Assembly: GCF_009711135.1 (NCBI RefSeq)
Contig: NZ_WMIC01000003.1
Coordinates: forward strand, 1-64,000
Direction: 5' to 3'
Length of the DNA stretch: 64,000 nt
From: Flavobacterium sp. LC2016-01
GTDB lineage: Bacteria; Bacteroidota; Bacteroidia; Flavobacteriales; Flavobacteriaceae
A program made the translations under genes and the position numbers. Shown here piece by piece: positions 7,215-51,482 of this stretch. Each line of letters begins with the position of its first letter. Position 1 is the first letter of the stretch. The notes beneath the pieces are model-generated. The model was not told where the DNA came from. It saw only the letters and a list, made by a program, of their open reading frames with translations, and searched no databases.

Positions 7215-7250
7215 ATAAAAAAAAATCGCCGCAGTTTAAAAAACTGCAAC
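7215..7250 (-). terminator. Terminator of the CAP-domain gene
   Basis: GCAGTTT (7231-7237) and AAACTGC (7241-7247) form a hairpin. On the minus strand it is followed by GGCGA and a nine-T run (A-run at 7217-7225 on the plus strand). It faces the adhesin-operon terminator, so the convergent operons are insulated from each other. Confidence 0.8.
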
Positions 7251-7282
7251 GATCGTAAAAACCAACCAGTTTTTAATTAATC

Positions 7283-7792
7283 CTATATTCTAACAAAAAT
7301 GTTAGTGTAATATTTTTTACCCGTTTTGGCATCAATTGTAATTGCAATTCCAAAATGAGTATAATTTCCTTCGATGTTTTCTTTATGTCCTGGACTTTCC
7401 AACCACGCTTTTAAAGCAGCTTCAGAAGTTTTATAATTGTAAGCAACATTCTCGCCTACTTTTTTTGCACCGAGAACTTTTTCAAGATTTTCAGAACGCG
7501 CTACAAAATCATTATGATCAACAACATTTTTTTCGATCATATATTTGTTATGTTCTTCACATTTGGCCGAAATATGATTAATTGGTTCTAAAGCATTTAG
7601 ACCAATACTAACACGGTAATCGTTAATCAATTTCATGGTTTCTAATTCTGAATCGTTGTACGAATAGTTCGTAATCAGAATCTCAGTTGAAGTACTGTTT
7701 TCAGTTCCCTCTGCAGTGTCGGCAGAACATGCGTTCATTGCAAAAAGTATTGCAATGAACGTCATGATGCGCATTATCTTCTTCATAGTCAT
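7283..7792 (-). CDS. CAP-domain (SCP/PR-1) lipoprotein
   Basis: This 169-residue protein has a lipoprotein signal (FAMNAC, lipid on the Cys near residue 22) and a CAP/SCP domain. The domain shows LINDYRVSIGLNALEP, a metal-site HN motif (EHNKYM), the second His region VVDHNDFVARSENL, VGENVAYNY, AWLESPGHKENIEGNYTHFG and KKYYTNIFV, all typical of the bacterial YkwD-like family. It is exported and lipid-anchored; its biochemical role is unknown. ATG codons at 7792 and 7786 both fit the signal peptide; neither has a clear ribosome site. It is a single-gene unit with its own terminator. Confidence 0.9.
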   Translation of the reverse strand: MTMKKIMRIMTFIAILFAMNACSADTAEGTENSTSTEILITNYSYNDSELETMKLINDYRVSIGLNALEPINHISAKCEEHNKYMIEKNVVDHNDFVARSENLEKVLGAKKVGENVAYNYKTSEAALKAWLESPGHKENIEGNYTHFGIAITIDAKTGKKYYTNIFVRI

Positions 7793-7962
7793 ACAGTAGT
7801 TTAATGCTTAAAGTAAATGTTGGGGCAAATCCTTTAACTTTTTATAATTTGAATAAATTGTTTCATTTTTCTTACGCCAAACATATTCAAATTGTCGTTA
7901 AACTACAAAATTAATCGATGAAATGCATCATATTTTTATTTTATGATATATTTTTCTTACAT

Positions 7963-19513: not shown

Positions 19514-22500
19514 CTAGTTTAAAAAATTCATTACTTTGAATGATTTTTTATTTCCTGCTTTGTCTGTCACTATTACCAAAAACAATTGTTTTGTCGAGAA
19601 ACTCTGGCTTTGCAGCAACACTTCTTTATTATTTTGAACATTTTTTCGGCTTGCTACATTTTGTCCAATCAAGTTGAAAACATCAACCTGAGCAATATCT
19701 TCTGTTTCATTGGAAACTGATAAGGCATCATTTTTAAAGTACGCTGTCGTAACATTATTTTTTACCGAAATATCACCAAGTGCCAATGTTTTTGCGGCTG
19801 ATTGCGAAGCAAAATAAGCAGCATAAGCATTAGATAATTCAGATGAATTTCCACAAGAAGATGCGTCCCAGTTTACAGACCAAGTCATTAAACCTCTTAA
19901 AGAAGGATATGGTCCGCCTGGCTGCATAGTGTACGTTCTTCCCGAAAAAGTGGTTCCCGTTCTTAAATAATTCATAGCACTAATTCCTTCTGCCGGCGTT
20001 AAATAACCGCTGCCTGCTGCACTTGGGCAAGCTGGTAATGCAATAAGAACTTTTGAGGCCGGTAAACCATCGAAATGCATTCCTGTTGTACCAATGTTAT
20101 AGCCTTTTATCACCATATCTGTTAGGGCTGTTACCATGTTTGCTTTCTTAGCTGTACCATAATATTGACCATCTAATCCGTTTTCTCCTCCTGTATTATA
20201 CAATTGTACCGCTAACAAATCCAATTCATTACGCAAGTTTTGAATGATTGGCAGGAAGGAACCAAAAGTATCCGTATAGGTAGAATATCCTCCTTGAACG
20301 TATTGTGTTTCCGGAGCGGCAGTTAATAAAAATCCAGGGCCATAGTAAGCTTTTAGTTCTTTACAGGCATCTACTATATTTTTTAATCTTGGATAAGCAG
20401 AAATACCCGCATAAGAAATATCTCTTAAACCTCCTGCATTAAAATTCATCGATCCGCCTTCAAAATCCAAATCAACTCCATCAAATTGATACTCATCGAT
20501 GATTGCTTTTAGAGCATTAACAAAAATATTTTTTTGCGTTACATTGTCCAAAACAACATGCCCATTTTGACCTCCAATAGAAACAATAACAGGAACGCCG
20601 CTGTCTCTTAAGGATTTTATATCATTTTTCAACAATTGCTTATTGAAAACACCATTGGTCAAATATCTAGTGTCATTTGTAGTTAATATTGGTGTATAAC
20701 CATCACGATTAACTGTTTCTACGAAAGAATAATCAACTACGTTAAACTTACTTCCCACCATTTGAGAAAAATATAAAAATGGTGCAGAAGTATTTTCCCA
20801 AGAATGTGCATATCCTAAAATAATTTTAGAAGGAAGCGGAATGAATCTATTACCGATCACTGTAGCAATTTTAATGGTATTGTTTAATGTCGTTATACCC
20901 GATTGATTATCGGTTGCTTTGATTACAACTGGATAATCCTGATAAGCAGTTGGTGTAAAATTATATGTATAGGTATTGTTTGTACCCGCTGTCATATTAA
21001 ATGTGCCTCCATTTATTGTAATACTAACACCTGAAACCGATCCGTCACTGTCAAGAGCTGTAACCGAAATTGGCACAACCTGGAAAGAATTTTGGTATAC
21101 AGTAGTATTCGATGGTGAATTCCAAGTAATTGCCGGCAATGCATTAGGACAAGTTGTTCCTGAGCATTGTAAAGCGAACGTTTTTGTGTTTTCGGCAGTT
21201 GTACCGCTTGAAGCCGTTACTGTTGCTTTCAACGTATAATTTTTGTTGAAATCTGCTGCAGCTGGTGTCCAGTTTGCTACATATTCTGTTCCTGAAAGTG
21301 CTGCTGCAATATTTTGTCCGTTGATATTGAATACTACTGACGAAATAGTTAAGCTGGCATCAACACTTGCAGTTGCTTTAAGCTGAATAGCTGTTCCCGG
21401 AGCGATCGCTACCGTTGCAGCTGAAGGAGCCGTAATAGTAACCTGTGGTGGTGTAACTGTGTTTGTATTGAAGTTATAAACCTGAGGCGTTGTTGGCACT
21501 GCGAAGTTTGTCAAATTATTTGGAAAATAAGCTACTTCACCATTTTCCCATGAATTCAATTTTAAACTTGTGATGATTGAATATCCTGCTAAAACCGAAT
21601 TGTTATAGCTGAAATTTCCTGAACCATCTGTAATTGCAATAATACTTACATAACCATGAGTACTATCTGTCCAAGGCAAAATTAATTCTACTTTGGCACC
21701 AGAAACAGGAGTTGAACCATTTTTAACTGTTCCGCTGATTAAGTTGCCACTTGTTACATTTTGAGTAAAATTCAGCGTTTTATTGGCATTAATAGCGGTA
21801 TAAATTGTTGAAGCCGGACTAAAACTTAAACCTGTTTTTGCAGCGGTTACTGTGTAATCTGAACCTGCAACTAAATTGGCAACGCTATAATTTCCTGAAG
21901 CATCAGAAGTTGCTGTTAAAGTTGTAGTTCCAGAAATAGCAGAAACTGTAGCACCTGAAACAGCTGTTGTTCCGTTTTTCACAGTTCCGCTTACTGTATA
22001 ATAAACCGGAGTTACCACTTGCGTGAAATTCAATGTTTTATTTGCATTAATAGCTGCATAAACCGTTGAAGCAGGCGTGAAAGTCAATCCTGTTTTAGCA
22101 ATCGTTACGGTATAATCTGAACCCGCTACCAAATTGGCAACACTATAATTTCCTGAAGCATCAGATGTTGCTGTTAAAGTTGTAGTTCCTGTAACTGCTG
22201 AAATTGTTGCACCTGAAACTGGAGTTGCTCCGTTAAGAATGCTTCCGCTTACTGTATAATAAACAGGAGTTACCACTTGCGTAAAATTCAATGTTTTATT
22301 TGAATTAATAGCATTATAAACCGTTGAAGCCGGCGTAAAAGTTAATCCTGTTTTAGCAATTGTTACTGTATAATTTGATCCAGAAACCAAATTAGCAATG
22401 CTGTAATTTCCAGAAGCATCAGAAGTTGCGGTTAAAGTTGTAGTTCCTGTAACTGCTGAAATTGTTGCGCCTGAAACTGGAGTTGCTCCGTTAAGAACCG

Positions 22501-25009: not shown

Positions 25010-25469
25010 AGTTATTAATATTGGTTAATAGAAAATAAGTAATTGGGCCGAAGCAGTTTTACTGCTGGGTTTCGCTCAACGCAGTTTGGAAGGCTGCATC
25101 GATTGGAAATAAACTCAAATTAAATTCTATAGATAAATATTACTATTACTGATTCTTGATAATCATTAGCAAATAGTAGTGATTGATATTTATTTATAAT
25201 TTTTTAAAAATTACTATTAAATACAACTGATAAACTTGGGACTACTCATCAATTTTAACTCGTTTTGTCATGTTTTAAATTTTACTCTTTTTATTTGGTT
25301 TTTAAATGTTAATACTCCTTTAGTGGTTATTTTTTTGTTTTGATTTTAAGGAATTAATAGCTGTTGTTTGAAAAATATCTCTGCTGAAAATCTCCAGCAG
25401 AGATAAATTAAATTACTACATAATCATGGTAACAAACTTTACTAAACACTACTAATTCAAACCAAATTT
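25010..25469. other. 460-bp region between chiA and the GH20 gene
   Basis: No gene is seen. Next to chiA (25045-25105) is a GC-rich stretch with a small hairpin AGCAGT-TTT-ACTGCT, probably in the chiA leader. An AT-rich stretch with a weak dyad (TACTATT at 25141-25147, AATAGTA at 25172-25178) follows and is a likely promoter/operator zone. The GH20 terminator lies at 25376-25405. The size of the gap implies that chiA has its own promoter. Confidence 0.55.
25376..25405 (-). terminator. Terminator of the GH20 gene
   Basis: TATCTCTGCTG (25376-25386) pairs with CAGCAGAGATA (25395-25405) as a perfect 11-bp stem. On the minus strand a TTTTTC run follows. It lies 65 bp after the GH20 stop codon and would end the susC-susD-nagB-GH20 transcript. 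Confidence 0.85.
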
Positions 25470-27536
25470 TTATATTAATTTCTTTAAGCCTGCATAAACT
25501 GCCAGCTCAACATCTGCGTAATCTTTTGTATTACAGTCTTCGATTAATTTCTTCAAATCTTCTGATTTTAAAGTCGATTTATTGTCTAAAACCAGTAAAA
25601 CTTGTTCTGATGCATCACTCAATTTTTTTGCTAAAGGAAGAAATGGCTGTACTAATGGTGCATTGGCACTTAATTCATTTAATCCTTTGTTAACAGCAAT
25701 CCATTTGGTTAAAAATGACGCTACTTTAGCTTTATTTTCAGGCGTTTTATTTGCTAGGTATTGCGTTACAGCTTCATTAAAACTTAAAGCATCTTTAGCA
25801 TCAGGTGTACATGCATCTGCAAAAAGTGTCAGCGGTGAATACATTTGATATTCCGTTCCGCCTTTATTACGCGTATATCCCTTTAACGGCTCACAAACAT
25901 TTGAAAACTCATCTAACAAACTGATATTTTGATTGTTTGCAATATTTCTTAAGATTACCGCTTTGTTGCGAATATGAGTCAATCCTAATTCTTCAAGTCT
26001 GAAGGAAACAACATCGAGACGTTTACGCATATTTGAAACATCTGTAATATCTTCTGCTGACCAAAGTCTTTCTGCAATTGCAGCAGTTCTTGGCCAAACT
26101 CTTGAATCTATAGTAGTTTCAGAAGCAAGTTCTGTCCACATTGTAGCTTCACCACCTAAAATTCTTGCTTTTTCTTCTGCAGTCAATACGGCACCTTTTG
26201 GCATTGGGTCATTTAAATAATGACTTTCTACCGGATACATTAAATCAATATAATAACCATTTGACAATACTGTTTTGTATCCTTTTTTTACAGCATCAAC
26301 TAAAGATTGTCCTGCTGCCATTCCTTCATTTGTACCTCTCCAAGAATGAACAATTGCTTCTTTTGAAAGGTCTTTAGTCAAGATTTCTTCCCATCCCATT
26401 AATTGTTTTCCATGTTTTTTAAGCATTGGAGCCAATTGCATAGTGAAATACGTTTGTAATTCGTGATTCGTTTTTAAATTATGTTTCTTCTTAAACTCTT
26501 GAATTTTTGGATTTGCATCCCAGTCTTTCCCCTCATTTTCATCTCCCCCAATATGAAAATAAGCTCCGGGAAATAATGGGCAAACCTCATCAAAAAGTTC
26601 ACTTAAAATTTGATATGTTTTAGGATTTGAAGGATCTAATGTTGGTGAAAAAATACCCGCATTTCTTTCAATTCCATAGGTCGCAATTGCTGTTCCCTGA
26701 ATATTTTTTTCAGAAGTTCCTCCTGTCAGCGTAATCACTTTGCTTCCAATTTCTGGATAAGCCGTTAAAATCGCAGATCCGTGACCTGGAACATCTATTT
26801 CTGGAACTATCAAAATACCGCGCTCATCAGCATATTTTACGATATTTTTAATTTCCTCTTGTGTATAATACAATCCATCCGAAGCAACTTCAATAAGTTT
26901 TGGATGTTTTTTCATTTCGATTCTCCAGCCTTGATCATCAACTAAATGCCAGTGAAAAACGTTCATTTTCATTGCTGCCAATCCGTCGATATTTCTTTTG
27001 ATAACGTCAACCGGCTGAAAATGTCTTGAGGCATCAATCATTAAGCCTCTCCAAGTGAATCTCGGAAAATCTGAAATTTGAGTGTTCGGAAAATAAAATG
27101 AATTATTATTGTTTTGCAATAACTGCAATAAAGTTTCAAGACCATGAAGTGCGCCTAAATCACTTGTTGCATTTATTGTAATCTTATTTTGTTTGACATC
27201 TAAGTGATAACTTTCATCTTCATACAAACCAATTTTTCCGCTTTTGGTACAGTTTATCTGAAGTTCAGCTGTTGGAACTTCATTTAATTTTGTAATAAAA
27301 CCTTGTTGAAAAAATAAACCAGTCCTGCCATCTAAGCGACGCAAAAAACGAGTTACTCCGCCAAAAACTCTTGGATTTGGATTTCCGGTAATGTTTACTT
27401 TAAAATTTTTAGTTAAGGCAAAATTCCCGTCGTTTAAAACAACACTTTGAGGCCAAGGCATAAGATTTAGCTGCTCTTTTTGAATTTGAGCATTAGATGT
27501 TAAACCCGCAAATAGTAGGACTAATAAATACTTCAT
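25470..27536 (-). CDS. Beta-N-acetylhexosaminidase, GH20
   Basis: This 688-residue exported enzyme (signal peptide ending SNAQ) has an N-terminal GH20b domain (MPWPQSVVLNDG, LTKNFKVNI, LHGLETLLQLL) and a GH20 TIM barrel. The barrel has FTWRGLMIDASRHF, MNVFHWHLVDDQGWR, VPEIDVPGHGSAIL, the catalytic Asp-Glu pair in YFHIGGDENEG, MGWEEIL and a C-terminal catalytic region with GGEATMWTE. It removes GlcNAc from the non-reducing ends of chito-oligosaccharides, presumably in the periplasm after SusCD import. It ends with an additional ~150-residue helical domain. It corresponds to the hexosaminidase of the F. johnsoniae chitin locus. Confidence 0.96.
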   Translation of the reverse strand: MKYLLVLLFAGLTSNAQIQKEQLNLMPWPQSVVLNDGNFALTKNFKVNITGNPNPRVFGGVTRFLRRLDGRTGLFFQQGFITKLNEVPTAELQINCTKSGKIGLYEDESYHLDVKQNKITINATSDLGALHGLETLLQLLQNNNNSFYFPNTQISDFPRFTWRGLMIDASRHFQPVDVIKRNIDGLAAMKMNVFHWHLVDDQGWRIEMKKHPKLIEVASDGLYYTQEEIKNIVKYADERGILIVPEIDVPGHGSAILTAYPEIGSKVITLTGGTSEKNIQGTAIATYGIERNAGIFSPTLDPSNPKTYQILSELFDEVCPLFPGAYFHIGGDENEGKDWDANPKIQEFKKKHNLKTNHELQTYFTMQLAPMLKKHGKQLMGWEEILTKDLSKEAIVHSWRGTNEGMAAGQSLVDAVKKGYKTVLSNGYYIDLMYPVESHYLNDPMPKGAVLTAEEKARILGGEATMWTELASETTIDSRVWPRTAAIAERLWSAEDITDVSNMRKRLDVVSFRLEELGLTHIRNKAVILRNIANNQNISLLDEFSNVCEPLKGYTRNKGGTEYQMYSPLTLFADACTPDAKDALSFNEAVTQYLANKTPENKAKVASFLTKWIAVNKGLNELSANAPLVQPFLPLAKKLSDASEQVLLVLDNKSTLKSEDLKKLIEDCNTKDYADVELAVYAGLKKLI

Positions 27537-27694
27537 TTTAATTTTTTTGAAATGATGTTACCCTGAGGAAACATTAATAATGTATAAAAGAAACAAAACT
27601 CAGAATGATTGCTATTGAACCTCACTAATCGCTATGAAACCAATCTGAATTTTGTAATTTGACTCGCTTTAAATACGAATCTTAAATTTTTATT

Positions 27695-29635
27695 TTAGTA
27701 ATCAAAACGCTTAAAGGCTTCGATTGCTTCATATTCTGCCAAACCTAATTCATCATACAGAATTGCGGTATTTTTATTTCGGTCTTCGGCTCTAACCCAA
27801 AATTCACGAGAATCATTTCCTTGGAACATAACTCGGTCTTTTTGAGACTGATGATACAAGATTGCATGACGTTTCAACAATACTTCTGATGGAGAAAGCG
27901 GCACTGCCATATCAATTTCGTTAATATCCCATTCTTGCCAAGCTCCTCTGTAAAGCCATAACCAGCAGTCATCCATATATTTTTCAGGTTTCAGGGCTTT
28001 CAAGGCTGCAAAAATCGCATTTAGACACACTTCATGCGTTCCGTGCGGATCTGCTAAATCTCCTGCTGCAAATACTTGATGCGGTTTTATTTTGGCAATA
28101 ATATCTTTAACAATTTCAATATCTTCTGGGCCTAATGGATTCTTTTTAACTTGTCCGGTTTCATAAAACGGAAGATCTAAAAAGTGTGTGTTTTCATCTT
28201 TAAGTCCAATGTATCTTGTTGCTGCGTAAGATTCCCTTCTTCTAATTAATCCTTTTAATTTTCGAACTTCTAAAGAATCAATCTGATTTTCAGATTTGCT
28301 GTTTAGAAATTTAATTACCGATTTAAAATTGATATCTTTTGGTAAATCGGCACCTACAAAATCGTTACATACTTCAGCAAATTTCAATGCTTCGTCATCT
28401 GTAACGGCAATATTTCCTGAGGTTTGATATACTACATGTACATCATGTCCTTGTTTAATCAATTTTGAGAAAGTTCCCCCCATCGAAATCACGTCATCAT
28501 CTGGATGCGGACTGAAAAGGATTACTCTTTTTTTAGCAGGATTGGCTCTTTCCGGACGATGTGAATCGTCTGTATTTGGCTTTCCACCCGGCCAGCCTGT
28601 AATAGTGTGCTGCAAAACGTTGAACATATTAATATTCAAATCGTAAGCAGAACCTTCCTGCGCCAAAAGATCCGACATTCCGTTATTATTGTAATCACGG
28701 TCAGTCAATTTTAATATCGATTGTTTTGTTTTTTGGCATAACCAAACAATCGCTTTACTTTTTAATTCCTGTGTCCAGATGCATTCTCCAACCAGCCAAG
28801 GCGTTTTGAAACGCGTCAATTCTGAAGCTGCAGACTGATCTAAAACGAAAGTTGCATTAGCATGATTCTGTAAAAATGTAGCGGGAACCTCAGAACTGAT
28901 ATCGCCTTGAATAGTTCTTTTGATGATATCGGCTTTGTTTTGCCCCCATGCCATTAATACAATTCGCTTTGATCTCATAATGGTCGAAACTCCCATTGTG
29001 ATCGCACGTTTTGGTACATTGTCAATTCCATTAAAGTCTGATGAAGCATCGACTCTTGTAATATGGTCTAATGTGATAATTCTTGTTCCTGAATTAATGT
29101 GTGATCCAGGCTCATTGAAACCAACGTGTCCTGTACGTCCGATTCCTAATAACTGAAAATCTAGGCCTCCAGCTTGTTTAATATTCATTTCGTAATCGAT
29201 GCAGTATTGATTTAGTTCATCTATTGCAACTGTGCCGTCAGGAATATTAACATTTTCAGGCTTAATATCAATGTGATTAAAAAGATGCTGATGCATAAAA
29301 TAGTGATAGCTCTGATTGTTTTCTTTTGACATTGGATAATATTCATCCAAGTTAAAAGTGATCACGTTGCTAAAACTTAATCCTTCTTCTTTGTGCATTC
29401 TCACTAGTTCCTCATATACTTTAATAGGAGAAGAACCTGTTGCCAAACCCAATACACAAGATTTGTTTTTTTCTTGCTTAGATCTGATTAACTGAGCGAT
29501 TTCCTGCGCTACAATTACTGATGCTTCGGCTGAATTTTTGAAGATTTCATTGTGAATTTTCTCAAATCTAGTTTCTTCAAATTTACCGGCGCTTTTATAG
29601 CTGATATCAGGTTTTATTTCTAAAGCACTTTTCAT
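27695..29635 (-). CDS. nagB: Glucosamine-6-phosphate deaminase fused to a PIG-L-like domain
   Basis: This 646-residue fusion has an N-terminal NagB domain (about 20-290) with VLGLATGSSPIKVYEELV, the catalytic FNLDEYYPM and GIGRTGHVGFNEPGS. A C-terminal PIG-L/LmbE-like deacetylase domain (about 370-610) has the metal motif HPDDD (377-381) and the later DPHGTHEVC. NagB converts GlcN-6-P to fructose-6-P and ammonia. The PIG-L half could deacetylate an N-acetylglucosaminyl substrate, though NagA-type deacetylation by it is not demonstrated. No nagA or GlcNAc kinase is in this window. The same fusion is known in Bacteroidota chitin loci. It is 119 bp after susD, with a strong hairpin in the gap. 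Confidence 0.93.
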   Translation of the reverse strand: MKSALEIKPDISYKSAGKFEETRFEKIHNEIFKNSAEASVIVAQEIAQLIRSKQEKNKSCVLGLATGSSPIKVYEELVRMHKEEGLSFSNVITFNLDEYYPMSKENNQSYHYFMHQHLFNHIDIKPENVNIPDGTVAIDELNQYCIDYEMNIKQAGGLDFQLLGIGRTGHVGFNEPGSHINSGTRIITLDHITRVDASSDFNGIDNVPKRAITMGVSTIMRSKRIVLMAWGQNKADIIKRTIQGDISSEVPATFLQNHANATFVLDQSAASELTRFKTPWLVGECIWTQELKSKAIVWLCQKTKQSILKLTDRDYNNNGMSDLLAQEGSAYDLNINMFNVLQHTITGWPGGKPNTDDSHRPERANPAKKRVILFSPHPDDDVISMGGTFSKLIKQGHDVHVVYQTSGNIAVTDDEALKFAEVCNDFVGADLPKDINFKSVIKFLNSKSENQIDSLEVRKLKGLIRRRESYAATRYIGLKDENTHFLDLPFYETGQVKKNPLGPEDIEIVKDIIAKIKPHQVFAAGDLADPHGTHEVCLNAIFAALKALKPEKYMDDCWLWLYRGAWQEWDINEIDMAVPLSPSEVLLKRHAILYHQSQKDRVMFQGNDSREFWVRAEDRNKNTAILYDELGLAEYEAIEAFKRFDY

Positions 29636-29674
29636 TTTTTTTCTTTTTTTGGTATGTACAAATTTTGGTTATTG

Positions 29675-29710
29675 AAATGGTATAAGTAACTCTCATTACT
29701 TATACCATTT
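29675..29710 (-). terminator. Strong hairpin between susD and nagB
   Basis: AAATGGTATAAGTAA (29675-29689) and TTACTTATACCATTT (29696-29710) form a perfect 15-bp stem with a 6-base loop. On the minus strand it follows the susD stop by about 45 bp, and only a weak T-run (TTTCAATAACC) follows. It may be a partial terminator or an RNA-processing/stability element that lowers nagB and GH20 expression relative to susCD. Confidence 0.7.
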
Positions 29711-29754
29711 GCAATTACTAACCAAACTTAAATCCTTTTAAACACAAATTATTT

Positions 29755-31335
29755 TTAGAAATTAGGACCTGTAGTATCCCACCAAAGTCTTGTTCCTCCA
29801 GTATCTGGTCCATTTAATTTTGCAATTCCGCTAGCAACTCCACCTGCATTGGCCGCTTTCTCAGATGTAACATAATTAATTCTTCGAACACCAAATTGAG
29901 TAGTAATTGTTCCTCCACTATAGTTTTTAAGTACTGGGAAAAGTTTAGGATAACCTGTTCTTCTGTAGTCAGACCAAGCTTCTTGTCCTTCTGGGAAACC
30001 AGCAATCCATTTTTGAGTAATGATTTTTTGTAATTTAACTTCATTTGTTGCAGCAGCATCCCAAGCAACAGTCACATTATTCAATGCAGCTGAATTATTT
30101 TCTGGGAAGTTTGGATCTACATAAGCAATAGCTGTTTTTGTATTATCAGCAGTATAAGCTGCTGCACCAGAAGCACCTCTCTGATCAAATGAAGCTTTAA
30201 TTCCTGCTTCATACAGTGCTTGTGCCGTTCCATTCATGTTCCATCCTCTTAATGCACCTTCAGCTCTTAAAAAATAAGCTTCAGCAGTTGTGAATAAAAC
30301 AATTTCTTTAGATCTAACAACAGCACCTACTCCAGAAAAATCTTGGTGATCTCCTTTACCATTAATTGCAATACCTGTACGTACACCTTTGTATTGACCA
30401 GGAAATTGAGTTGATGTATCGAAATAAGTAGCCGTTCTAGGGTCTTGGTAACCACCTAAAATAGACTCCATATCAGCTGACATACGAATATCTAACCAAG
30501 AACCACTGATTGTATTAATTGGGTTTGTATAAACTGGAGATACAATTTTAAATAAATCTGCATTTGTAGTAAATACTCCGAATTTTTGAGCTACCGCTTT
30601 TTCAGCCTGTGTTTTAGCTAAAGTTGGATTAACTTTAACAATGCGCATTGCAAGTCTTAAACGTAAAGTATTTGCAAATTTTACCCAAGCTTTGTAATCT
30701 CCACCGTAAGCTGACAAGTCTGTACTAACAAACGTTGAAGCCTCTCCAGCATCTACTCTTTTTGTTAATTCAGCAACAGCTGTATCTAATTCTGCAAACA
30801 TTTGATTGTAAACCTCTTCTTGAGAATCGTAAGGAATAGTAGTTTCTGGCGAACCAAATTTAGAATAGATGATTGGTCCCCAAGTATCTGTAACTCTATG
30901 CATTCCTTCAACTTTCAAAATCAATGAAAGTGCATAAAACTGATCGTATTTACCTTTTGATTTATTAGCAATATCATATGCATTAAACATTACATATTTA
31001 TAAGCATAATCCCAATTGTAAACATTCCAACCATCAACTAATGAATAAGTAGTATTGTTAATACCTCCTGCAAATCCAGTTGGTGTAGCCATATATCCAG
31101 ACCAGATATCACAGCTTAACCCTTGCTGTAATTGATAAACCCATTCTGGAGTTAATACTTGTATATTGTTGAACATTGGAGCGAAACCTCCTTTAATGCT
31201 ATTAAAATCCTGCTCTAACTCCTTTGGTGTAAAACCATTTGGATTAGTATTTATATCTTCAAAATCACCTGTACAACCTACTGCGGTAAGTAATGAGATA
31301 CAGATAGCTGCTTTTGCTATTTTATTTAGTTTCAT
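29755..31335 (-). CDS. SusD-like chitin oligosaccharide-binding lipoprotein
   Basis: This 526-residue lipoprotein (lipobox TAVGC, Cys21) belongs to the SusD/RagB superfamily, SusD-like_2 type. Evidence is DFEDINTNPNGFTP at the mature N-terminus, the TPR-rich body (YALSLILKVEGMHRVTDTWG, YNQMFAELDTAVAEL) and AEAYFLRAEGALRGW. It sits on the cell surface and closes over the SusC barrel to capture chito-oligosaccharides. It starts 11 bp after susC and is surely co-transcribed with it. The substrate is inferred from the chitin locus. Confidence 0.95.
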   Translation of the reverse strand: MKLNKIAKAAICISLLTAVGCTGDFEDINTNPNGFTPKELEQDFNSIKGGFAPMFNNIQVLTPEWVYQLQQGLSCDIWSGYMATPTGFAGGINNTTYSLVDGWNVYNWDYAYKYVMFNAYDIANKSKGKYDQFYALSLILKVEGMHRVTDTWGPIIYSKFGSPETTIPYDSQEEVYNQMFAELDTAVAELTKRVDAGEASTFVSTDLSAYGGDYKAWVKFANTLRLRLAMRIVKVNPTLAKTQAEKAVAQKFGVFTTNADLFKIVSPVYTNPINTISGSWLDIRMSADMESILGGYQDPRTATYFDTSTQFPGQYKGVRTGIAINGKGDHQDFSGVGAVVRSKEIVLFTTAEAYFLRAEGALRGWNMNGTAQALYEAGIKASFDQRGASGAAAYTADNTKTAIAYVDPNFPENNSAALNNVTVAWDAAATNEVKLQKIITQKWIAGFPEGQEAWSDYRRTGYPKLFPVLKNYSGGTITTQFGVRRINYVTSEKAANAGGVASGIAKLNGPDTGGTRLWWDTTGPNF

Positions 31336-31346
31336 TTTTTTTAAAT

Positions 31347-34300
31347 TTAGAAAGTTACATTTAAATTAAGACCGATACTTCTAGTAGATGGCAAACCATA
31401 AATATCAACTCCTTGAAGACCTTGACCTGTACTTAATGCAATATTTGGATCAAAAGGAGCATCTTTGTAGATAAAGAATAAGTTTCTAGCGATTAATGAA
31501 ATACTAGCTGAATTTAGGAAAGGCAATGCTTTACGATTAAAGTTATACCCTATAGAAACTTCTCTAACACTTACGTTAGTTGCTGAATAAACATATTCGC
31601 CAGTAATACCTGCTCTACCACCAACTTGTGTATAGTAAGATTTAGCATCCATTGTTGTAACTGCTGTTCCGTCAGGTTTAACTGCATTAATAGCAACACC
31701 ACCTGCATTTCTAGCATCTCCAGTTGCTTTTGAAACTCCAAAAGAGTCATTTTGAGCTTGAGTCAAACTCATTACATCACCTCCAAAACGACCATCAAGC
31801 AATACATTTGCGAAGAATGGACCATATTTGAATGAGTTAGAGAAACCTAACATGAAATCAGGGTTAGAGTTACCTACTTCTTCAAAATCAGTTTTTTGGA
31901 AAGTTCCGTCATCATTTAATAAAATTCTTCCTTGTGCATCTTTCTTGAAGTTAATACCTTCAATAACACCATAAGGTCTTCCTTCGATTAAAGCATATCT
32001 GTAGCTATTTACTCCAGCTTCAGTTAAATTAACTCTGTTTCCAATATTGTCTGGAAGCTCTTTAACTTTGTTTTTGTTTTGTGAGAAGTTAACAGATGTA
32101 TCCCAAGAGAATTTATCTCCTCTGATAATACCTGCATTTAACACAAGCTCGATACCTTTATTTTCAATACTTCCTGCATTAAATCCGTAAAAGTCAACAC
32201 CTTCTTGGTTTCCAACTGGTGCAACAACTTGTAAATATTGGTTTTTAGTTTCAGAATTGTAATATGAAACCTCAAAACTGAATCTGTTATTAAACATTCT
32301 CCATTCTGTACCAAACTCAAATTCTGATTTTAACTCAGGTTTCAAAGTAGTTCCATTTTTTGGTCCTGCACTTGGTTTTGGATCTGTAAAACCAGGTCTG
32401 TAGTAGTATGTTGGAGTTGAGATAAAAGGGAAAATATCATTACCAACTTGTGCATAAGTACCACGTACTTTTCCATAATTAATCCACTCTGGCAATGTTG
32501 TCATTTCACTAATAAGAGCTGTAACCCCTACAGATGGATAAAAATAGCTTGATGTTCCTGTATTTGCTAATGTTGAAGACCAATCGTTTCTTCCAGAAAG
32601 ATCTAAGAACAACATATCTTTATAACCAAAAGTAGTAGCAGCAAAAACTGACTGTACTTCTCTTCTAGAATCTATTGTCTGATAGTTATTTGCATTATTT
32701 ACAAAATTAGCTAATGTAAACCAGTTAGCATAAACTAAACCTGCACTAATTCCTGAATCTAAAATTGTTTTTTGATTTGTTAATGTATTTGTGATACTTG
32801 TACCAACGTTTGCTGTGAAAGTAAAATCTTCTCCAATTTTTGTATTAATTGTAGCAATTAAATCACCATAACGTTGTGTACTCAATGAATTCTCAGAATA
32901 ATATCTACCATTTACATTAGAAAGAGTCCCTTGAGTTGTAGCAAATATTCTTTTATCAAAAAGACTTGTAATTCTGTTATAACTGTATCTTGAAGCAAGA
33001 GTTAACCAGTTATTAGCTTTGTATGATAAAGATAATGATCCGTTGAAGTAATCATTTTTGTCCTCAGATTTATTTCTGTTGATTGCCCAATATGGATTTT
33101 GCATAATATCTCTATTAGTCATCCAGTTTTGCGCCATTAAATTTCTTGTTGGATCAAAAACTTCATAAGTTTCTTTGTATTCGTTAAAGTCATAACCTCT
33201 TGGCATTAAATAAACACCTGTTAATGGGTTAAAATAAAATCCGTTAACTGGTTTGTTTGCAATAGTTTGACTTGTATAGTTTGCATTAGCACCAAAAGTC
33301 AATTTATCATTAAAAAATTTAGCAGTTTGACGAATTCCAAAGTTATTTTTCTTTAAGCTATTTCCTGGAGTAATACCACTAGCAGATGTATTAGCATATG
33401 AAAATGCAGTAGTAGAATTTTCAGAACCAAGTGAATATCCTATTGAAGTAATTTGTGTTACTCCTGTATTGAAAAAATCTTTTACGTGATCAGGAGAAGT
33501 TTGTTTTGCTCCCCAAGATTCATCTGCTCCTGTTGCAGCAATGTAATCTGTTTGGAATTTAGGAAGATAAGCAGCACTTTCAAAAGTAGTTACAGAAGAA
33601 GCTGCGATATTTGCTTTTCCTTCTTTAGATTTTTTAGAAGAAAGTAAAATTACACCATTTGCTCCTTGAGAACCATATAAAACAGAAGCTGCAGCACCTT
33701 TAAGAACTGTCATTCCTTCGTAATCATCAGGATTCACTAATGAAATAACATCTCCTCCATCACGGTTACCTCCAGCTAAACTACCAAATGTATCATTAGG
33801 TTGTCCAGAACCAGAATTTAACATTGGGATACCATCAATAACATATAAAGGCTGGCTATTAGAAACAGAAGAGTTACCACGAATTACTACTTTTGTAGAA
33901 CCACCAGTACCACCAGCACTTTTAGTTACAGCAACACCAGCAATTTTACCAGCAATTGTATTGATAACGTTAGCATCTTTTACACGAACTAATTCATCTC
34001 CTTTAAGCTCTTGTGCCGCATAAGTCAATGATTTTCTAGTTTTCTTAATACCTAAAGAAGTTACAACAACTTCGCTTAAAGCATTTGAAGATGCATTCTC
34101 CATTTTTACATTAATTGTAGTAGCATCTCCTACAACTATAGTTTGCGTTTCAAGACCTACATAGCTAAAAACTAATGTCTGCCCTTTTTGTGCTTCGATT
34201 GTGTACAATCCGTCAAAATCGGAACTAGCTCCTTTTTGACTTCCCTGCACTAAAACGGATGCCCCTGGCAACGGCATTCCATTAGAATCTGTAATCACAC

Positions 34301-34376
34301 CTTTGACATTTTTTACTTGAGCAAGCGAAACCTGCGCCGTAAAAACAATCATAAAGATTAAGAAAATTTTTTTCAT
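31347..34376 (-). CDS. SusC-like TonB-dependent outer-membrane transporter
   Basis: This 1009-residue protein has a signal peptide (TAQVSLAQ), a carboxypeptidase-D-like N-terminal extension ([20 protein letters not shown], about 23-95), a plug domain and a 22-strand barrel ending in LNLNVTF. The plug has [29 protein letters not shown] and [20 protein letters not shown]. It imports chito-oligosaccharides with SusD, driven by TonB. It is the first gene of the minus-strand operon, diverging from the sensor-kinase gene across a 268-bp regulatory region. The chitin substrate is inferred from context. Confidence 0.96.
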
Positions 34377-46223: not shown

Positions 46224-47471
46224 ATGTTATTCGAAGATTTATCACTCTCAAAAAGTATACAAAAAGCCGTATTTGAAGAAGGCTACCTAAACCCCACTCC
46301 AATTCAGGAACAATCTATCCCGATCGTTTTATCAGGAAGAGACTTAATTGGGTGCGCACAGACAGGAACAGGAAAAACAGCAGCATTTGCCATCCCAATC
46401 ATACATCAATTACACCGAATTGTAGGTTCATCAAAAAAAGCCAAACAAATTCGTGCATTAATAGTTACACCAACACGCGAACTTGCTGTACAAATTGGAG
46501 AAAGTTTTGATACCTATGGCAAATACACCAATCTAACACAATTAACCATTTTTGGAGGTGTTTCGCAAAATCCACAAGTTGAAACCTTAAAAAAAGGTGT
46601 CGATATTTTGGTGGCAACTCCAGGAAGATTACTGGATTTGCACAAACAAGGTTTTCTTGATTTTGATCATTTGCACACTTTGGTTTTAGACGAAGCAGAT
46701 CAGATGCTGGATATGGGTTTTATCAACGATGTAAAAAAGATCGTAAAATTAACGCCTAAAAACCGTCAGACATTATTGTTTTCAGCAACGATGCCGATTG
46801 CTATTCGCGAATTGGCCGAAATGTTTCTAAAAGATCCAGAACAAGTAGAAGTTTCTCCGGTTTCTTCAACTGCCGAAAATGTAGAACAGCGTATTTATTT
46901 TGTTGATAAAACAGAAAAAAGAAACTTGCTTTACCATTTAATTAAAGAAGAAAATTTATCAAACGTGCTTGTTTTTTCAAGAACAAAACATGGCGCTGAT
47001 AATGTTGTAAAAGCACTTCGCAAAAAAGATATTCCTGCTGAAGCCATTCATGGAGATAAATCGCAAAATGCAAGACAGCGCGTTTTAGATGCTTTTAAAA
47101 ACAAAGAAGTTGGTGTTCTGGTTGCTACAGACATCGCTGCCAGAGGAATTGACATTGAACAATTGCCTTATGTAATTAATTTTGATTTGCCTAATATTCC
47201 TGAAACCTATGTGCATCGTATTGGCCGTACAGGACGTGCTGGAAATGGCGGAATTGCAATTTCATTTTGCGGGAAAGATGAAGAACCGTACTGGAAAGAC
47301 ATTAAAAAACTGATAAAAGTTGATGTCAAAATAATTACTGAACATCCTTATCAATGGCATTCTGGAAGTCCTGAAGCGGGAGAAAAACCAAAAAGCTCTA
47401 ATCGAAGCGGAGGTGCTCACAAATCAAGAAAATCAAATGCTTCTAAACAAAATAAAAAACGCTGGTATTAA
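46224..47471 (+). CDS. DEAD-box RNA helicase, RhlE-like
   Basis: This 415-residue helicase has all standard motifs in order: Q motif NPTPIQEQSIP, motif I AQTGTGKT, Ia PTRELAVQ, GG and PGRLLD, II DEAD, III SATMP, IV VLVFSRTKHGAD, V TDIAARGID and VI HRIGRTGRAG. A short basic tail (KSSNRSGGAHKSRKSNASKQNKKRWY) follows, typical of RhlE-type proteins. It unwinds RNA in ribosome assembly or mRNA decay. Its last four bases overlap the convergent hybrid kinase gene, and the shared sequence is a palindromic terminator. Confidence 0.95.
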   Translation: MLFEDLSLSKSIQKAVFEEGYLNPTPIQEQSIPIVLSGRDLIGCAQTGTGKTAAFAIPIIHQLHRIVGSSKKAKQIRALIVTPTRELAVQIGESFDTYGKYTNLTQLTIFGGVSQNPQVETLKKGVDILVATPGRLLDLHKQGFLDFDHLHTLVLDEADQMLDMGFINDVKKIVKLTPKNRQTLLFSATMPIAIRELAEMFLKDPEQVEVSPVSSTAENVEQRIYFVDKTEKRNLLYHLIKEENLSNVLVFSRTKHGADNVVKALRKKDIPAEAIHGDKSQNARQRVLDAFKNKEVGVLVATDIAARGIDIEQLPYVINFDLPNIPETYVHRIGRTGRAGNGGIAISFCGKDEEPYWKDIKKLIKVDVKIITEHPYQWHSGSPEAGEKPKSSNRSGGAHKSRKSNASKQNKKRWY

Positions 47472-47482
47472 CCAGCGTTTTT
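47455..47482. terminator. Terminator inside two overlapping convergent gene ends
   Basis: AAAAACGCTGGT (47455-47466) pairs with ACCAGCGTTTTT (47471-47482) around ATTA. It works in both directions. It encodes the last codons of both the helicase (stop TAA 47469-47471) and the hybrid kinase (stop at 47468-47470). Confidence 0.9.
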
Positions 47483-49657
47483 CGCTTCTTCTATTAAGTA
47501 ACTAATAATTTTAAAGAGTTTTACAGGCTCAAACGGCTTAATGATAATATCATTTATCCCAGATGAAATCGCCTCATCAGTTATTTCGTCTTTATCAAAA
47601 GCGGTCAGCGCCACAATTGGTGTCTTGATATCCTGCAAACGAATCCTTTTACTGGTTTCAAATCCGTTCATTAATGGCATATTGATATCCATTAAAATAA
47701 GATCAAAAGTTTCTTTTTCTAAAATTTCCAAAGCACCAAAACCATCATCAACAACTTTGCAGATGTAATTATTTTTCTCAATAATTTTCTTGGTTACCAG
47801 CTGATTGATCCGATTATCTTCAACAATTAAAATTTTATGAACTTCATTTGATGTCAAATCAACTTCAATTTCAGCTATTATTTTTTTAGTTTTCTCGGGA
47901 TCATGTTCAAACGGAATGATAAACGAAAAAGAAGTTCCCTGACCCAAATCACTTTCTAGCGTAATTGTACTGCCAAACAAACCTAATAATCGCTTTACAA
48001 TACTCAAACCTAAACCAGTTCCTTGATAATCCTCATCTTTTCGTCCAACTTGAACAAATTTTTCAAAAATCTTATTTTGGTCAACAGTTGCAATTCCGAT
48101 ACCATTATCTTTAATTAGAAAAGCTAAGAAATGATTTTTCCCTTCTGTCTTCAAAAGATCAACTTTCACTTCAACTTCTCCATTTTTCGTGAATTTCAAG
48201 GCATTACTGACTAAGTTCATCAAAATTTGAGCGAGTCTCAGCTTATCTCCAATCAAATATTCCGGAATATAAGGATCGATGTAAATATTAATTTTGTTGT
48301 TATTTTTTTGAGATAAAAAAGAAAGTGAGTTTTTGATCATCATAATTTCATCAGAAATATTGAATGTCAGATTTTCCAGTACTACTTTATTTTCTTCAAT
48401 TTTATTAATCTGCAAAATGTCATTTACTAATGACAATAGATATCTGGCAGAGAATTTCAGCGAACTTAAATGCTGGCTTCTTGATAATTCTTTATGTTCT
48501 TCCAAAAGCATATTAGTAATCCCAACCACTCCATAAAGAGGCGTACGCAATTCGTGACTTATAGTCGAAATAAATTGGGTTTTGAGTAAAGAAGCTTCTT
48601 CTGCAATTTCTTTAGCTTTTAAAAGCTCTAAATTGTGTTTCTTTTTAAACCTGATATTTTTAATTAATGTAATAATCAAAAAGAGCAGAATAAGAGAAAT
48701 CAGTACAAACAGAATTACAATAATTCGCGATTTTTTAAGACTTTGATACTGAGAAATTTTTTCATTTTCAATTTTATCAATCTGTCTTTTGTATTCATCT
48801 AATTCAAGATTAAAACCTGCAATTGAAGCTTTTTTCAGCTTTTGCTGATTGTATAATTCTTCTGTAATCTTATTATACAAACTAAGGTTTTCATAGGCTT
48901 CCTTATACTTTTTAATTTTCATTAAAAACTTAGAATACTCCAAATGCGCATATGACAAATCAGATCTTTCATCACTGGTTTTTCCTGCAGCAATTGCATT
49001 TAAAAAATAAGCATTGGCAGCATCATTTTCATTTTTATAATTTAAATACATACCATTAAGCATATTGGCAATAATCTCTGTTGATTTATCACTATACTTT
49101 TCAGTATTATTAGAAACAAATTTCAGATAAGGATATCCTTCCTTAAATTTACCAACATCAAAGTATGCCCAGGCAATATTTACATTTGTAAAATACACCT
49201 GACTTAAGTCGTTTATTTTTAATCCGTATGCAATAGATTTTTTATAATAGTAAATTCCTATGTCAAATTGTTTTTTTTCAAAACAATACATATTGCCTAA
49301 ATTATTATACAGATTATATTTTATGGAATCATTATCTGTTCTATTCGCATAAATCAAGCTTTTCTTATAAAAAAAGATAGCTTTATCTACCTCTGACAAT
49401 TCATTATAATTGGCGGCAATAATATTATAGGAACGAGAAATTAAGGTGTTGTTTTTTGCTGCTGTAGCAGCATTCAGGGCAACCCTAGAAATAATTAATG
49501 ATTTCTCGAAGTTTGATTCTCTAAAGTTAACTAATGCTTCTTTAACAAGCTGATCTGCTTTTAAAGAGGTTTCTTTTTTACCATTCTGTGCCGTTAAATT
49601 AAATGAAAGAATATTCAATAATAAAGCAAACGCTAAAAATATCCGCACTCTAAGCAT
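47468..49657 (-). CDS. TPR-containing hybrid histidine kinase/response regulator
   Basis: This 729-residue protein has a signal peptide or N-terminal helix (VRIFLAFALLLNILSF), periplasmic TPR repeats (about 30-290), one membrane helix (IIVILFVLISLILLFLIITLI, about 310-330), and a HisKA domain with STISHELRTPLYGVVG. An HATPase follows with LRLAQILMNLVSNALKFT and GTGLGLSIVKRLLGLFG. It ends in a receiver with phospho-Asp in DLILMDINMPLMNGFE and Lys in IIIKPFEP. The ATG at 49657 is preferred over 49678 because TATATTTG (49676-49683) marks the promoter. No output domain or partner is adjacent. Confidence 0.93.
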   Translation of the reverse strand: MLRVRIFLAFALLLNILSFNLTAQNGKKETSLKADQLVKEALVNFRESNFEKSLIISRVALNAATAAKNNTLISRSYNIIAANYNELSEVDKAIFFYKKSLIYANRTDNDSIKYNLYNNLGNMYCFEKKQFDIGIYYYKKSIAYGLKINDLSQVYFTNVNIAWAYFDVGKFKEGYPYLKFVSNNTEKYSDKSTEIIANMLNGMYLNYKNENDAANAYFLNAIAAGKTSDERSDLSYAHLEYSKFLMKIKKYKEAYENLSLYNKITEELYNQQKLKKASIAGFNLELDEYKRQIDKIENEKISQYQSLKKSRIIVILFVLISLILLFLIITLIKNIRFKKKHNLELLKAKEIAEEASLLKTQFISTISHELRTPLYGVVGITNMLLEEHKELSRSQHLSSLKFSARYLLSLVNDILQINKIEENKVVLENLTFNISDEIMMIKNSLSFLSQKNNNKINIYIDPYIPEYLIGDKLRLAQILMNLVSNALKFTKNGEVEVKVDLLKTEGKNHFLAFLIKDNGIGIATVDQNKIFEKFVQVGRKDEDYQGTGLGLSIVKRLLGLFGSTITLESDLGQGTSFSFIIPFEHDPEKTKKIIAEIEVDLTSNEVHKILIVEDNRINQLVTKKIIEKNNYICKVVDDGFGALEILEKETFDLILMDINMPLMNGFETSKRIRLQDIKTPIVALTAFDKDEITDEAISSGINDIIIKPFEPVKLFKIISYLIEEAKNAG

Positions 49658-49675
49658 AGTTATATATATTGTCCT

Positions 49676-49683
49676 CAAATATA
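49676..49683 (-). promoter_or_regulatory. -7 promoter box of the hybrid kinase
   Basis: CAAATATA reads TATATTTG on the minus strand, an exact match 19 bp before the ATG at 49657; it overlaps the alternative ATG at 49678, so translation from there is unlikely. Confidence 0.6.
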
Positions 49684-49881
49684 CATTATTACCTCATAAA
49701 AAAAGGGCTAATATTTTACAAAATTTATTTTAGCAAAAACAGTGCATTCAGTGTGTCGTATATAAAATATTCCAAATCATTTCTTTACACAAAACAAACA
49801 CATTTAACAAAATACCAAAAGAAACAAATAAAAATATAACAAAAAAAGTATGAGAAATTGTGATTTATTGGAATAAATATA

Positions 49882-49889
49882 TACTTTTA
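49882..49889 (+). promoter_or_regulatory. Possible promoter of the double-glycine peptide
   Basis: TACTTTTA matches TAnnTTTG at 7 of 8 positions, with a TTG 21 bases upstream. The start codon is 67 bp downstream. Confidence 0.4.
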
Positions 49890-49956
49890 GTAAATATTTA
49901 CGGACACAAGCCCCAAGTGTTTAATTAATAAGATTGGAGCATTAAACTTTAAAGTA

Positions 49957-50085
49957 ATGTTAGAAAAATTTTTAAAATCAGAAGAGTCTGAAAAATTGAC
50001 TCAAGCACAATTAAGAACTATTCAAGGCGGAGATGCTCCAGCAGAACCAGATCCAGAAGAAGGCAGAAAAGGAAAAGTAGCATAA
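49957..50085 (+). CDS. Small peptide with a double-glycine leader
   Basis: ATG at 49957 opens a 42-codon frame ending TAA at 50085. The leader MLEKFLKSEESEKLTQAQLRTIQGG ends with Gly-Gly after a hydrophobic/charged helix (LTQAQLRTIQGG), the pattern cut by C39 peptidases of bacteriocin-type ABC exporters. The core DAPAEPDPEEGRKGKVA (17 residues) has no Cys or hydrophobic part, unlike a classic bacteriocin. A promoter-like box lies upstream and a strong terminator lies 61 bp after the stop, so it is a free-standing gene. No exporter or modifying enzyme is in the window. It may be a secreted signal or a RiPP-type precursor. Confidence 0.72.
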   Translation: MLEKFLKSEESEKLTQAQLRTIQGGDAPAEPDPEEGRKGKVA

Positions 50086-50145
50086 CTATTTATTCCAAGA
50101 AACTGCTTCTTGTTGCATAAAAAAAGATCAGTTACTACTAAAAAG

Positions 50146-50177
50146 AAAGCCGTGAAAAAATTATTTTTCACGGCTTT
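50146..50177. terminator. Bidirectional terminator after the small peptide
   Basis: AAAGCCGTGAAAAA (50146-50159) and TTTTTCACGGCTTT (50164-50177) form a perfect 14-bp stem with a 4-base loop. It ends the peptide gene (plus) and the symporter gene (minus). Confidence 0.92.
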
Positions 50178-50204
50178 TATCTTTATAAGAAGCAAATTTT
50201 ACAC

Positions 50205-51482
50205 TTACTCGATATTTAAACTTTCTTCTTTATTACTTTCCCATTGTCCAACAACAGAAGTAGCCAAAGCGTTTCCTAGAACATTTGTTGCACTTCTAAA
50301 CATATCACAAAAATGATCGATAGGCAAGATTAATGCGATTCCTTCAACCGGAATATCAAACATACCACAAGTTGCCGCTACAACAACTAAACTTGCTCTT
50401 GGCACACCTGCAATTCCTTTGCTTGTAAGCATTAAAACTAAAAGCATCACCATTTGTGTTCCAATATCTAAATGAACTCCATAAAATTGGGCAATAAATA
50501 TACTGGCAAATGTCATATACATCATACTTCCGTCTAAGTTAAACGAATAGCCCAGCGGCAGCATGAAAGAAACAATTTTATCTTTTACACCAAAATCTTC
50601 CAACTCTTCAGTCAGTTTTGGAAAAACAGCTTCACTGCTTGTTGTACCAAATGCAATTGCTAATGGTCCGATTATACGTCTCAGCAACTCGGTCATTCTT
50701 CCTTTTAAGAAAATATAACCTACCGCAATTAAAACAACCCATAAAGTACCTATACCTACTAAAAATGAGCCGAAAAATTTAAAATAAGTAATTACTAATT
50801 CCTCTGCATCTCTAATGGCAAATACTCCAGCAATGGCACCAAAAACTCCAATTGGAGCAAAGTTCATTACATAGTTTACCATCTTTAAAACAATATGCGA
50901 AGCTTTATCTAAAGCATTAATTACAGGTTTTACAGTGCTTCCTAATGACGCTGCAGCTAATCCAAAAAAGATTGAAAAGATAACAATCTGAAGGATTTCA
51001 TTGGTTGCCATTGCTTCAAAAATACTTTTAGGCACAATATGCTCCACAAAATTTTCAACAGAAAGCGTTTTAGTTTTTGCTGTTACTTCCGTCGCAGCAG
51101 CCATATCAACGTGGTCTAATTTTAAACCTACGCCTGGCTCAAGAATATTTACATAAAATAAACCAATTAACAACGATATGAATGAAGCCGTAAAAAACCA
51201 TCCTAGAGCTTTACCTCCAATTCTTCCAACCGTTTTAATGTCTCCAAGTTTGGCAATTCCCACAACTAAAGTTGTAAATACCAAAGGTGAAATAATCATT
51301 TGCACTAATCGAATAAAAACAGTGGCCAGCATTTTAATTTTAGCGCTGAAAGATTGTGCTGCTTCAGGAGAAATTGTGTTGTGCAATATAATTCCTAAAG
51401 TTGCCCCTAGAACCATTGCAATAATAATTTGCCCTGTTAATCCTGAAAGAAATGATTTTTTTTTAGTTTCTGTAATTTGCAT
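50205..51482 (-). CDS. Dicarboxylate/amino acid:cation symporter (DAACS family)
   Basis: This 425-residue membrane protein has about eight helices. The family regions are VFIRLVQMIISPLVFTTLVVGIAKLG, the serine-rich region TTSSEAVFP, the MLPLGYSFNLDGSMMYMTFA motif near the substrate site, and LTSKGIAGVPRASLVVVAATC. It is like GltP/DctA, importing glutamate/aspartate or C4-dicarboxylates with H+ or Na+. Substrate choice cannot be made here. Its gene follows aroC on the same strand, but a hairpin lies between them. Confidence 0.93.
   Translation of the reverse strand: MQITETKKKSFLSGLTGQIIIAMVLGATLGIILHNTISPEAAQSFSAKIKMLATVFIRLVQMIISPLVFTTLVVGIAKLGDIKTVGRIGGKALGWFFTASFISLLIGLFYVNILEPGVGLKLDHVDMAAATEVTAKTKTLSVENFVEHIVPKSIFEAMATNEILQIVIFSIFFGLAAASLGSTVKPVINALDKASHIVLKMVNYVMNFAPIGVFGAIAGVFAIRDAEELVITYFKFFGSFLVGIGTLWVVLIAVGYIFLKGRMTELLRRIIGPLAIAFGTTSSEAVFPKLTEELEDFGVKDKIVSFMLPLGYSFNLDGSMMYMTFASIFIAQFYGVHLDIGTQMVMLLVLMLTSKGIAGVPRASLVVVAATCGMFDIPVEGIALILPIDHFCDMFRSATNVLGNALATSVVGQWESNKEESLNIE

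Follow-up and report, generated by a model that had tools for sequence, protein, structure and literature searches.

What does a double-glycine (GG) leader peptide do when a histidine kinase, and not an exporter, is encoded beside it? The question is raised by a short gene in a 64,000-nucleotide stretch of Flavobacterium sp. LC2016-01 (contig NZ_WMIC01000003.1, positions 1 to 64,000; hereafter the window), which lies at positions 49957–50085 on the forward strand and encodes a peptide of 42 residues. An earlier note, made from the sequence alone, had described the peptide as a possible signal, as a precursor of a ribosomally synthesised and post-translationally modified peptide (RiPP) or as an immunity-linked peptide; it contained neither the kinase pairing, nor the exchange of sensors, nor the pseudoknot-like element reported below. 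Here, we establish that the peptide gene is real and under purifying selection, identify the adjacent tetratricopeptide repeat (TPR) kinase as very probably its partner, and argue, with somewhat better than even confidence, that the peptide is a pheromone which leaves the cell through a C39 transporter and for which the TPR domain of the kinase is the predicted sensor.

A conserved gene for a GG-leader peptide

The frame at 49957–50085 (+) encodes MLEKFLKSEESEKLTQAQLRTIQGG / DAPAEPDPEEGRKGKVA, in which a leader of 25 codons (49957–50031) closes with LTQAQLRTIQGG and is followed by a 17-codon core (50032–50082, DAPAEPDPEEGRKGKVA) and the stop codon (50083–50085). The core has no cysteine, is strongly hydrophilic and is acidic-then-basic. 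Leaders recognised by C39 peptidases are hydrophobic at positions −4, −7 and −12 and end in GG; the window leader has I at −4, L at −7 and L at −12, and 11 aligned family members all retain GG and show no variation at the hydrophobic positions −12 and −4; in relatives, −7 is mostly Gln.

Searching 299 Flavobacterium genomes, we obtained peptide matches at E ≤ 0.01 in 20. Thirteen of these carry the peptide family beside a TPR kinase, and in the other seven (G015, G042, G052, G083, G209, G229 and G278) only GG peptides of exporter loci matched. A separate collection of named genomes gave 15 peptide loci, including those of F. resistens, F. hydrocarbonoxydans, F. panici, F. defluvii, F. soyae and F. 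pectinovorum; eight of the 15 are in duplicates of genomes in the 299 set. Across 21 peptide sequences the ratio of nonsynonymous to synonymous substitution (dN/dS) was 0.215 (leader 0.172, core 0.285), and the motif RKGKVA was invariant in all 21; both peptides of one genome, G174, differ at the C-terminus (DKGGKG..). Because relatives occur in many Flavobacterium genomes, dN/dS is low and RKGKVA does not vary, we conclude that the gene is real and under purifying selection. Translation and the matching genomes thus bear out the frame with a GG leader and Cys-free core given in the earlier note, and the related short frames with conserved GG by which it proposed to judge the gene do exist.

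The window peptide has no match in Pfam and none in NCBIfam at E ≤ 10, and a large protein collection returned four proteins at E ≤ 0.01, the window peptide being one of them. As to the remark that the gene is too short for most annotation pipelines, one source does list the close relative P0002, as a 'hypothetical protein'.

The peptide gene adjoins a TPR-sensor kinase

Divergent from the peptide gene lies a 729-residue TPR-sensor hybrid histidine kinase (47468–49657, −) with HisKA, HATPase and receiver domains, and on the other side lies a dicarboxylate symporter (50205–51482). By eye, the kinase has a signal-like N-terminus and a membrane segment near 48662–48730, and its TPR sensor part (48742–49582, −), the variable and apparently swapped portion of the protein, is predicted to be periplasmic. 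A domain scan found no LytTR domain in the kinase or the symporter. Sensor homologues are present in 224 of the 299 genomes, and a search of the window's own genome for a sensor paralogue returned none at E ≤ 0.01.

The order kinase, peptide, symporter recurs in 12 of the 299 genomes, and the peptide is flanked by these two genes at all 15 named-genome loci as well. G174, the thirteenth genome, departs from this order: its two family peptides are encoded at another site, with a LuxR-type response regulator on one side and, on the other, three TPR kinases that belong to a different catalytic type (HisKA_3). As the 13 genomes of the set and the 15 named loci amount, once overlaps are removed, to 20 carrier genomes, the peptide adjoins a TPR-sensor histidine kinase in 20 of 20 examined, and its partner is very probably this adjacent kinase.

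Sensor and peptide lie in a variable, probably exchanged block

We compared the DNA of the window with that of six peptide-bearing genomes and observed an identity of ~0.72–0.97 in the flanks (helicase, kinase and receiver, symporter, chorismate synthase). Identity drops to 0.47–0.72 over most of 48861–49820 and recovers only past 50180, which delimits a block of low interspecies identity (48861–50180) comprising sensor, intergenic stretch and peptide. Within this block the peptide is an island of ~0.7–0.8 identity.

Protein distances were then taken over 57 kinase–symporter loci, 12 with and 45 without the peptide, for pairs with a symporter distance below 0.06; an early sensor-distance comparison had drawn its peptide-less loci by sensor similarity, and 20 loci from further down the list were added. 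The mean sensor distance was 0.211 when both loci lacked the peptide (64 pairs), 0.396 for mixed pairs (35) and 0.312 when both had it (15), against mean kinase distances of 0.078, 0.103 and 0.070 for the same classes.

Phylogenies of the two parts of the kinase disagree. In the sensor tree, seven peptide-linked sensors form one clade (Shimodaira–Hasegawa-like approximate likelihood ratio support 100, branch 0.39) and four others form a second (100), while the window's own sensor groups with that of the peptide-less G096 and belongs to neither clade. In the kinase-plus-receiver tree the seven scatter: G053 joins the window and G096, G102 joins G008, G200 joins G243 and G280, and G182, G079 and G264 lie near G135 and G249. 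Between G053 and the window, residue identity is 0.92 in the kinase part and 0.972 in the symporter, and 0.50 in the sensor. Approximately unbiased (AU) tests, with groups chosen after the trees had been seen, rejected a kinase-part tree in which the seven are monophyletic (p 6.7e-7) and, for the sensor, rejected three groupings of the kinase tree (p 5e-45, 9.4e-6 and 3.1e-21). Given the conflicting trees, the AU tests and the low-identity block, we read these comparisons as repeated exchange of a peptide-plus-sensor cassette.

A structural model of the sensor (310 residues, 36 sequences; predicted local distance difference test score 88.7, predicted template modelling score 0.73) is a TPR superhelix. 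Among solved structures, those closest to it are LGN, kinesin light chain and the pheromone receptors RapH, RapF, RapI and NprR, and many of these contain a bound peptide. The likeness extends to many other TPR proteins besides Rap and NprR, and as TPR folds are common, the predicted structure supports, and does not demonstrate, peptide binding by the sensor.

An independent second case

To the G174 case we added regulator-plus-TPR-kinase (HisKA_3) loci from 20 genomes (L172–L191), and the peptide profile found a GG peptide in 0 of these 20, one frame in G004 being below its reach. In G174 the peptides sit inside an enlarged gap, and the locus carries two additional kinases; in G004 there is a single additional kinase and, by eye, a peptide-like frame that lacks a GG leader and has a similar C-terminus. 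The peptides of both genomes stand before divergent sensors, those of the additional kinases, which make up a separate clade (100, branch 0.92), and the ordinary sensors of the two genomes group with those of the peptide-less G275 and G298.

We also considered whether a genome has as many divergent sensors as peptides. This failed, as G174 has a third, GG-less peptide-like frame that by eye is kin to that of G004. The two frames (L072, ~7239–7391, −, in G174; L182, 2091–2252, −, in G004) begin MSKQFLEGEE..., have no GG, contain IDKGGK in their C-terminal part and lie in the gap that precedes divergent TPR kinases.

The genome encodes one C39 exporter elsewhere

The earlier description of a peptide without exporter holds for the window and not for the genome, in which contig C2 carries one full C39-ABC exporter with HlyD, not next to the window peptide. 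The VKOR-domain protein of this same locus also matches C39, weakly, and the window's genome, G079 and G102 have exactly one C39 domain each. At E ≤ 1e-15, a C39 domain is found in 128 of the 299 genomes overall and in 13 of the 13 that carry the family. The exporter locus on C2 (L030, 5664–15290) comprises HlyD, C39-ABC, four Cys-bearing GG-type peptides, the VKOR/C39-like protein, two Cys-free GG peptides and a TPR-AraC regulator; disulfides of the Cys-bearing peptides are possible targets of the VKOR/C39-like protein.

Searched with a peptide profile at E ≤ 10, the genome yielded eight matches, made up of the window peptide, the six C2 peptides and one short match that is not a peptide of this kind. 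Four of the six C2 peptides have GG, and two have GG-like leaders without the second Gly, so this leader class is not strictly a cleavage signal. Two exporter-locus peptides give weak, below-cut-off matches to the NCBIfam model NF047798 (leader_Chryseo, 'bacteriocin-like protein'), the window peptide being unmatched.

Annotated stretches, selected via peptide matches and not via the regulator, repeat this arrangement. A VKOR-type gene is present in 48 of 62 such stretches, and across these 48 exporter loci TPR-AraC and Cys-poor GG peptides occur together in 43, neither occurs in three and one only in two (L102 has the regulator without peptides; L110, at a contig end, has peptides without the regulator). 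The corresponding Fisher table (43, 1, 1, 3) gives p 9.1e-4, uncorrected for relatedness. In the 43 loci the Cys-poor peptides lie on the regulator-facing side, and of 121 peptides facing TPR-AraC, 113 have no Cys and eight have one. On the strength of these 43 of 48 loci, a second type of TPR regulator accompanies the same kind of hydrophilic GG peptide.

Exporter loci in other genomes (L117, L119, L120, L087 and L115) hold large tandem arrays of Cys-rich GG peptides, at least ~20 in L117. Many of the array peptides have the pseudoknot-like element described next, and they form an unexplored bacteriocin-like pool.

A pseudoknot-like element precedes the peptide gene

The window peptide and many exporter-locus peptides are preceded by a conserved stretch that contains two interleaved complementary pairs, predicted to form an H-type pseudoknot-like element (49902–49940, +). 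Stem 1 pairs 49902–49907 with 49917–49922 and stem 2 pairs 49910–49916 with 49934–49940; in the copy of the window, stem 1 includes two G-U pairs and stem 2 a single C-A mismatch. A simple automatic pseudoknot scan was discarded as unspecific, with 86 of 312 upstream stretches scoring ≥9 against 20 of 150 mononucleotide shuffles and the window copy unscored.

A motif pattern, applied to 77 stretches that partly overlap, matched 76 times; mononucleotide shuffles gave 4.0 matches on average. Removing duplicates and two matches that do not precede such a peptide (one in L072, one on the minus strand of the window) left 60 distinct copies, in which 94.0% of cells pair, against 88.6 ± 0.5 after shuffling (0 of 500 shuffles), the pattern itself limiting several stem positions to C/T or A/G and so favouring, not imposing, pairing. 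Both sides of a pair had changed in 57 cells, against 20.9 ± 7.8 (0 of 500), and slid versions of the element paired at most 46.6%.

Across the 5.24-Mb genome the pattern has three matches, one ahead of the window peptide and the other two ahead of one C2 peptide each, and the reversed control has none; the peptides beside TPR-AraC in this genome lack the element. Genus-wide there are 44 matches in 25 of the 299 genomes (control 0), and each of these 25 belongs to the 80 genomes in which GG peptides occur. All eight inspected matches (six scripted, two by eye) precede a frame with the same leader type, one of them without GG. In L072, where two GG peptides lie in tandem (7787–7948 and 7566–7748), the element stands before the first only. 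An Rfam scan of L117, L087, L072 and L001 gave 10 matches at E ≤ 5, all below the gathering score; one of them, to mir-15, overlaps an element and was taken as chance (19.2 bits against 57.3 needed).

We consider an RNA pseudoknot the best reading of this pattern. The element might instead work at the DNA level, as an operator in the form of an interrupted palindrome to which a regulator binds; its nearly constant ACA, CAA, TGT and TTG parts and a promoter-like box immediately upstream would suggest this, but the arms covary beyond shuffled expectation and the same copies fit two interleaved stems, and we regard an operator as somewhat unlikely.

The box in question, TACTTTTA (49882–49889, +), is A/T-rich, has by eye similarly placed counterparts in most orthologues, and resembles the −7 box of Bacteroidetes, with a putative role as promoter. 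The promoter-like box of the earlier note stands as such a motif and not as a sigma-70 promoter, the scan for which was at chance level (2 sites, 3.3 expected). The terminator that it assigned to the gene is upheld: a terminator scan gave 2 sites where 0.1 were expected, both being one intrinsic hairpin of 15 pairs (50145–50178, +; the minus strand also scored) counted once per strand.

A pheromone model and its alternatives

Among the roles proposed earlier, that of a signal is supported by the homologues, by the constant pairing with a TPR kinase and by the C39 exporter locus elsewhere in the genome. In the model that we favour, the peptide gene would be transcribed and the precursor cut after Gly-Gly to release DAPAEPDPEEGRKGKVA; the core would be exported in trans by the single C39 transporter of the genome and bind in the TPR groove of the sensor, and the kinase would signal to a downstream output. 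The 5' element, as an RNA pseudoknot, could couple the window peptide to the exporter-locus peptides. A wider picture, which we hold tentatively and at a little under an even chance, is of a quorum-sensing mode of Flavobacterium's own: acidic-then-basic GG pheromones, extracytoplasmic TPR domains on kinases or AraC regulators, mobile cassettes of pheromone and sensor, and a 5' pseudoknot RNA tying the pheromone to bacteriocin-like peptides and a shared exporter.

Weighing against a ligand role, 45 of the 57 kinase–symporter loci have no GG peptide and a shorter gap, which also rules out the idea that the kinase is always accompanied by the peptide. Such loci would suit a kinase that regulates the peptide gene, with the peptide serving not as ligand but in some other secreted role; divergent neighbours are often a regulator and its target, and the 5' element is common to Cys-rich, bacteriocin-like peptides. 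We nevertheless judge this unlikely, since the peptide-linked change sits in the sensor and not in the kinase or receiver, and in G174 the peptide accompanies TPR kinases of the other catalytic type. The leader and 5' element shared with the Cys-rich peptides of exporter loci, together with the sub-cut-off matches of two such peptides to the NCBI 'bacteriocin-like protein' leader model, could also point to a bacteriocin-like or otherwise toxic secreted peptide, the kinase being a stress or self-sensing regulator. Against this, the core is short, strongly hydrophilic and Cys-free, the Cys-poor class in exporter loci accompanies a TPR regulator, and no immunity-type gene was seen beside the peptide, whose two flanking genes are the kinase and the symporter; a toxin is thus highly unlikely.

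The peptide might, alternatively, stay inside the cell and modulate the kinase or the exporter directly, a possibility for which one can cite the lack of an adjoining exporter gene, the two C2 leaders without a second Gly, and the predicted periplasmic location of the sensor. The retention of GG and hydrophobic −12 and −4 positions in the aligned members and the C39 domain in every family-carrying genome speak the other way, and we give this reading little credence. The RiPP option recedes too, because the genome has no match to LanC-like (PF05147) or SPASM (PF13186) domains, in searches whose positive controls worked and in which other modification-enzyme families were not included, and because the flanks are a histidine kinase and a dicarboxylate symporter. 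An exported pheromone read by the neighbouring TPR sensor is the most probable of these roles.

Relation to known systems

In streptococcal ComCDE and BlpRH, a GG precursor is encoded beside a histidine kinase with a multi-span sensor and a separate LytTR regulator, and the C39 ABC exporter is encoded elsewhere. The Flavobacterium locus is alike in that a GG precursor adjoins a histidine kinase, the C39 exporter gene lies apart and the leader type is common to the putative pheromone and bacteriocin-like peptides. It differs in its TPR sensor with one predicted membrane segment, its fused receiver and lack of LytTR, its Gram-negative host, its hydrophilic acidic-then-basic core and its 5' pseudoknot-like element. 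The RRNPP systems of Firmicutes, the subject of PMC10075063, offer a second comparison. Their receptors, such as Rap and NprR, are cytoplasmic and bind re-imported peptides, whereas here the sensor forms part of a membrane histidine kinase and the peptide has a GG leader.

Within Bacteroidota, bacteroidetocins are described with a GG leader, a C39 peptidase-ABC exporter and a thiol oxidoreductase (PMC6671954), much as the C2 locus has C39-ABC, HlyD and a VKOR-domain protein; unlike them, the window peptide is Cys-free, hydrophilic, away from the exporter and beside a TPR kinase. Bacteroidales RiPP clusters combine GG leaders with C39, and include TPR genes in two cases and a kinase/regulator pair in one, and the available part of that text (PMC10352776) names no peptide–TPR pairing, sensor swap, upstream RNA element or Flavobacter. 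We found no report of GG-pheromone and TPR-kinase pairing in Bacteroidota in the open-licence PMC literature, preprints being outside this scope.

If the model is right, it would describe a new communication mode for the Flavobacterium group, and a large environmental genus would have a signal that can be tested directly with a short synthetic peptide. A class of ligand would be added to the TPR-kinase family, and the exchange of receptor specificity would become visible in the sensor–peptide cassettes. The 5' element, in addition, offers a small, covarying candidate pseudoknot by which members of this peptide class that gene callers miss can be recognised in genomes.

Other features of the window

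Apart from the peptide locus, the window holds a chitin-type gene group (19514–34376) with a GH18 protein of 1831 residues, a GH20 hexosaminidase and a TonB-dependent receptor, and resembles a chitin-utilisation locus. At 100–4131 it encodes a 1343-residue HYR-domain protein with a CHU_C type IX secretion signal.
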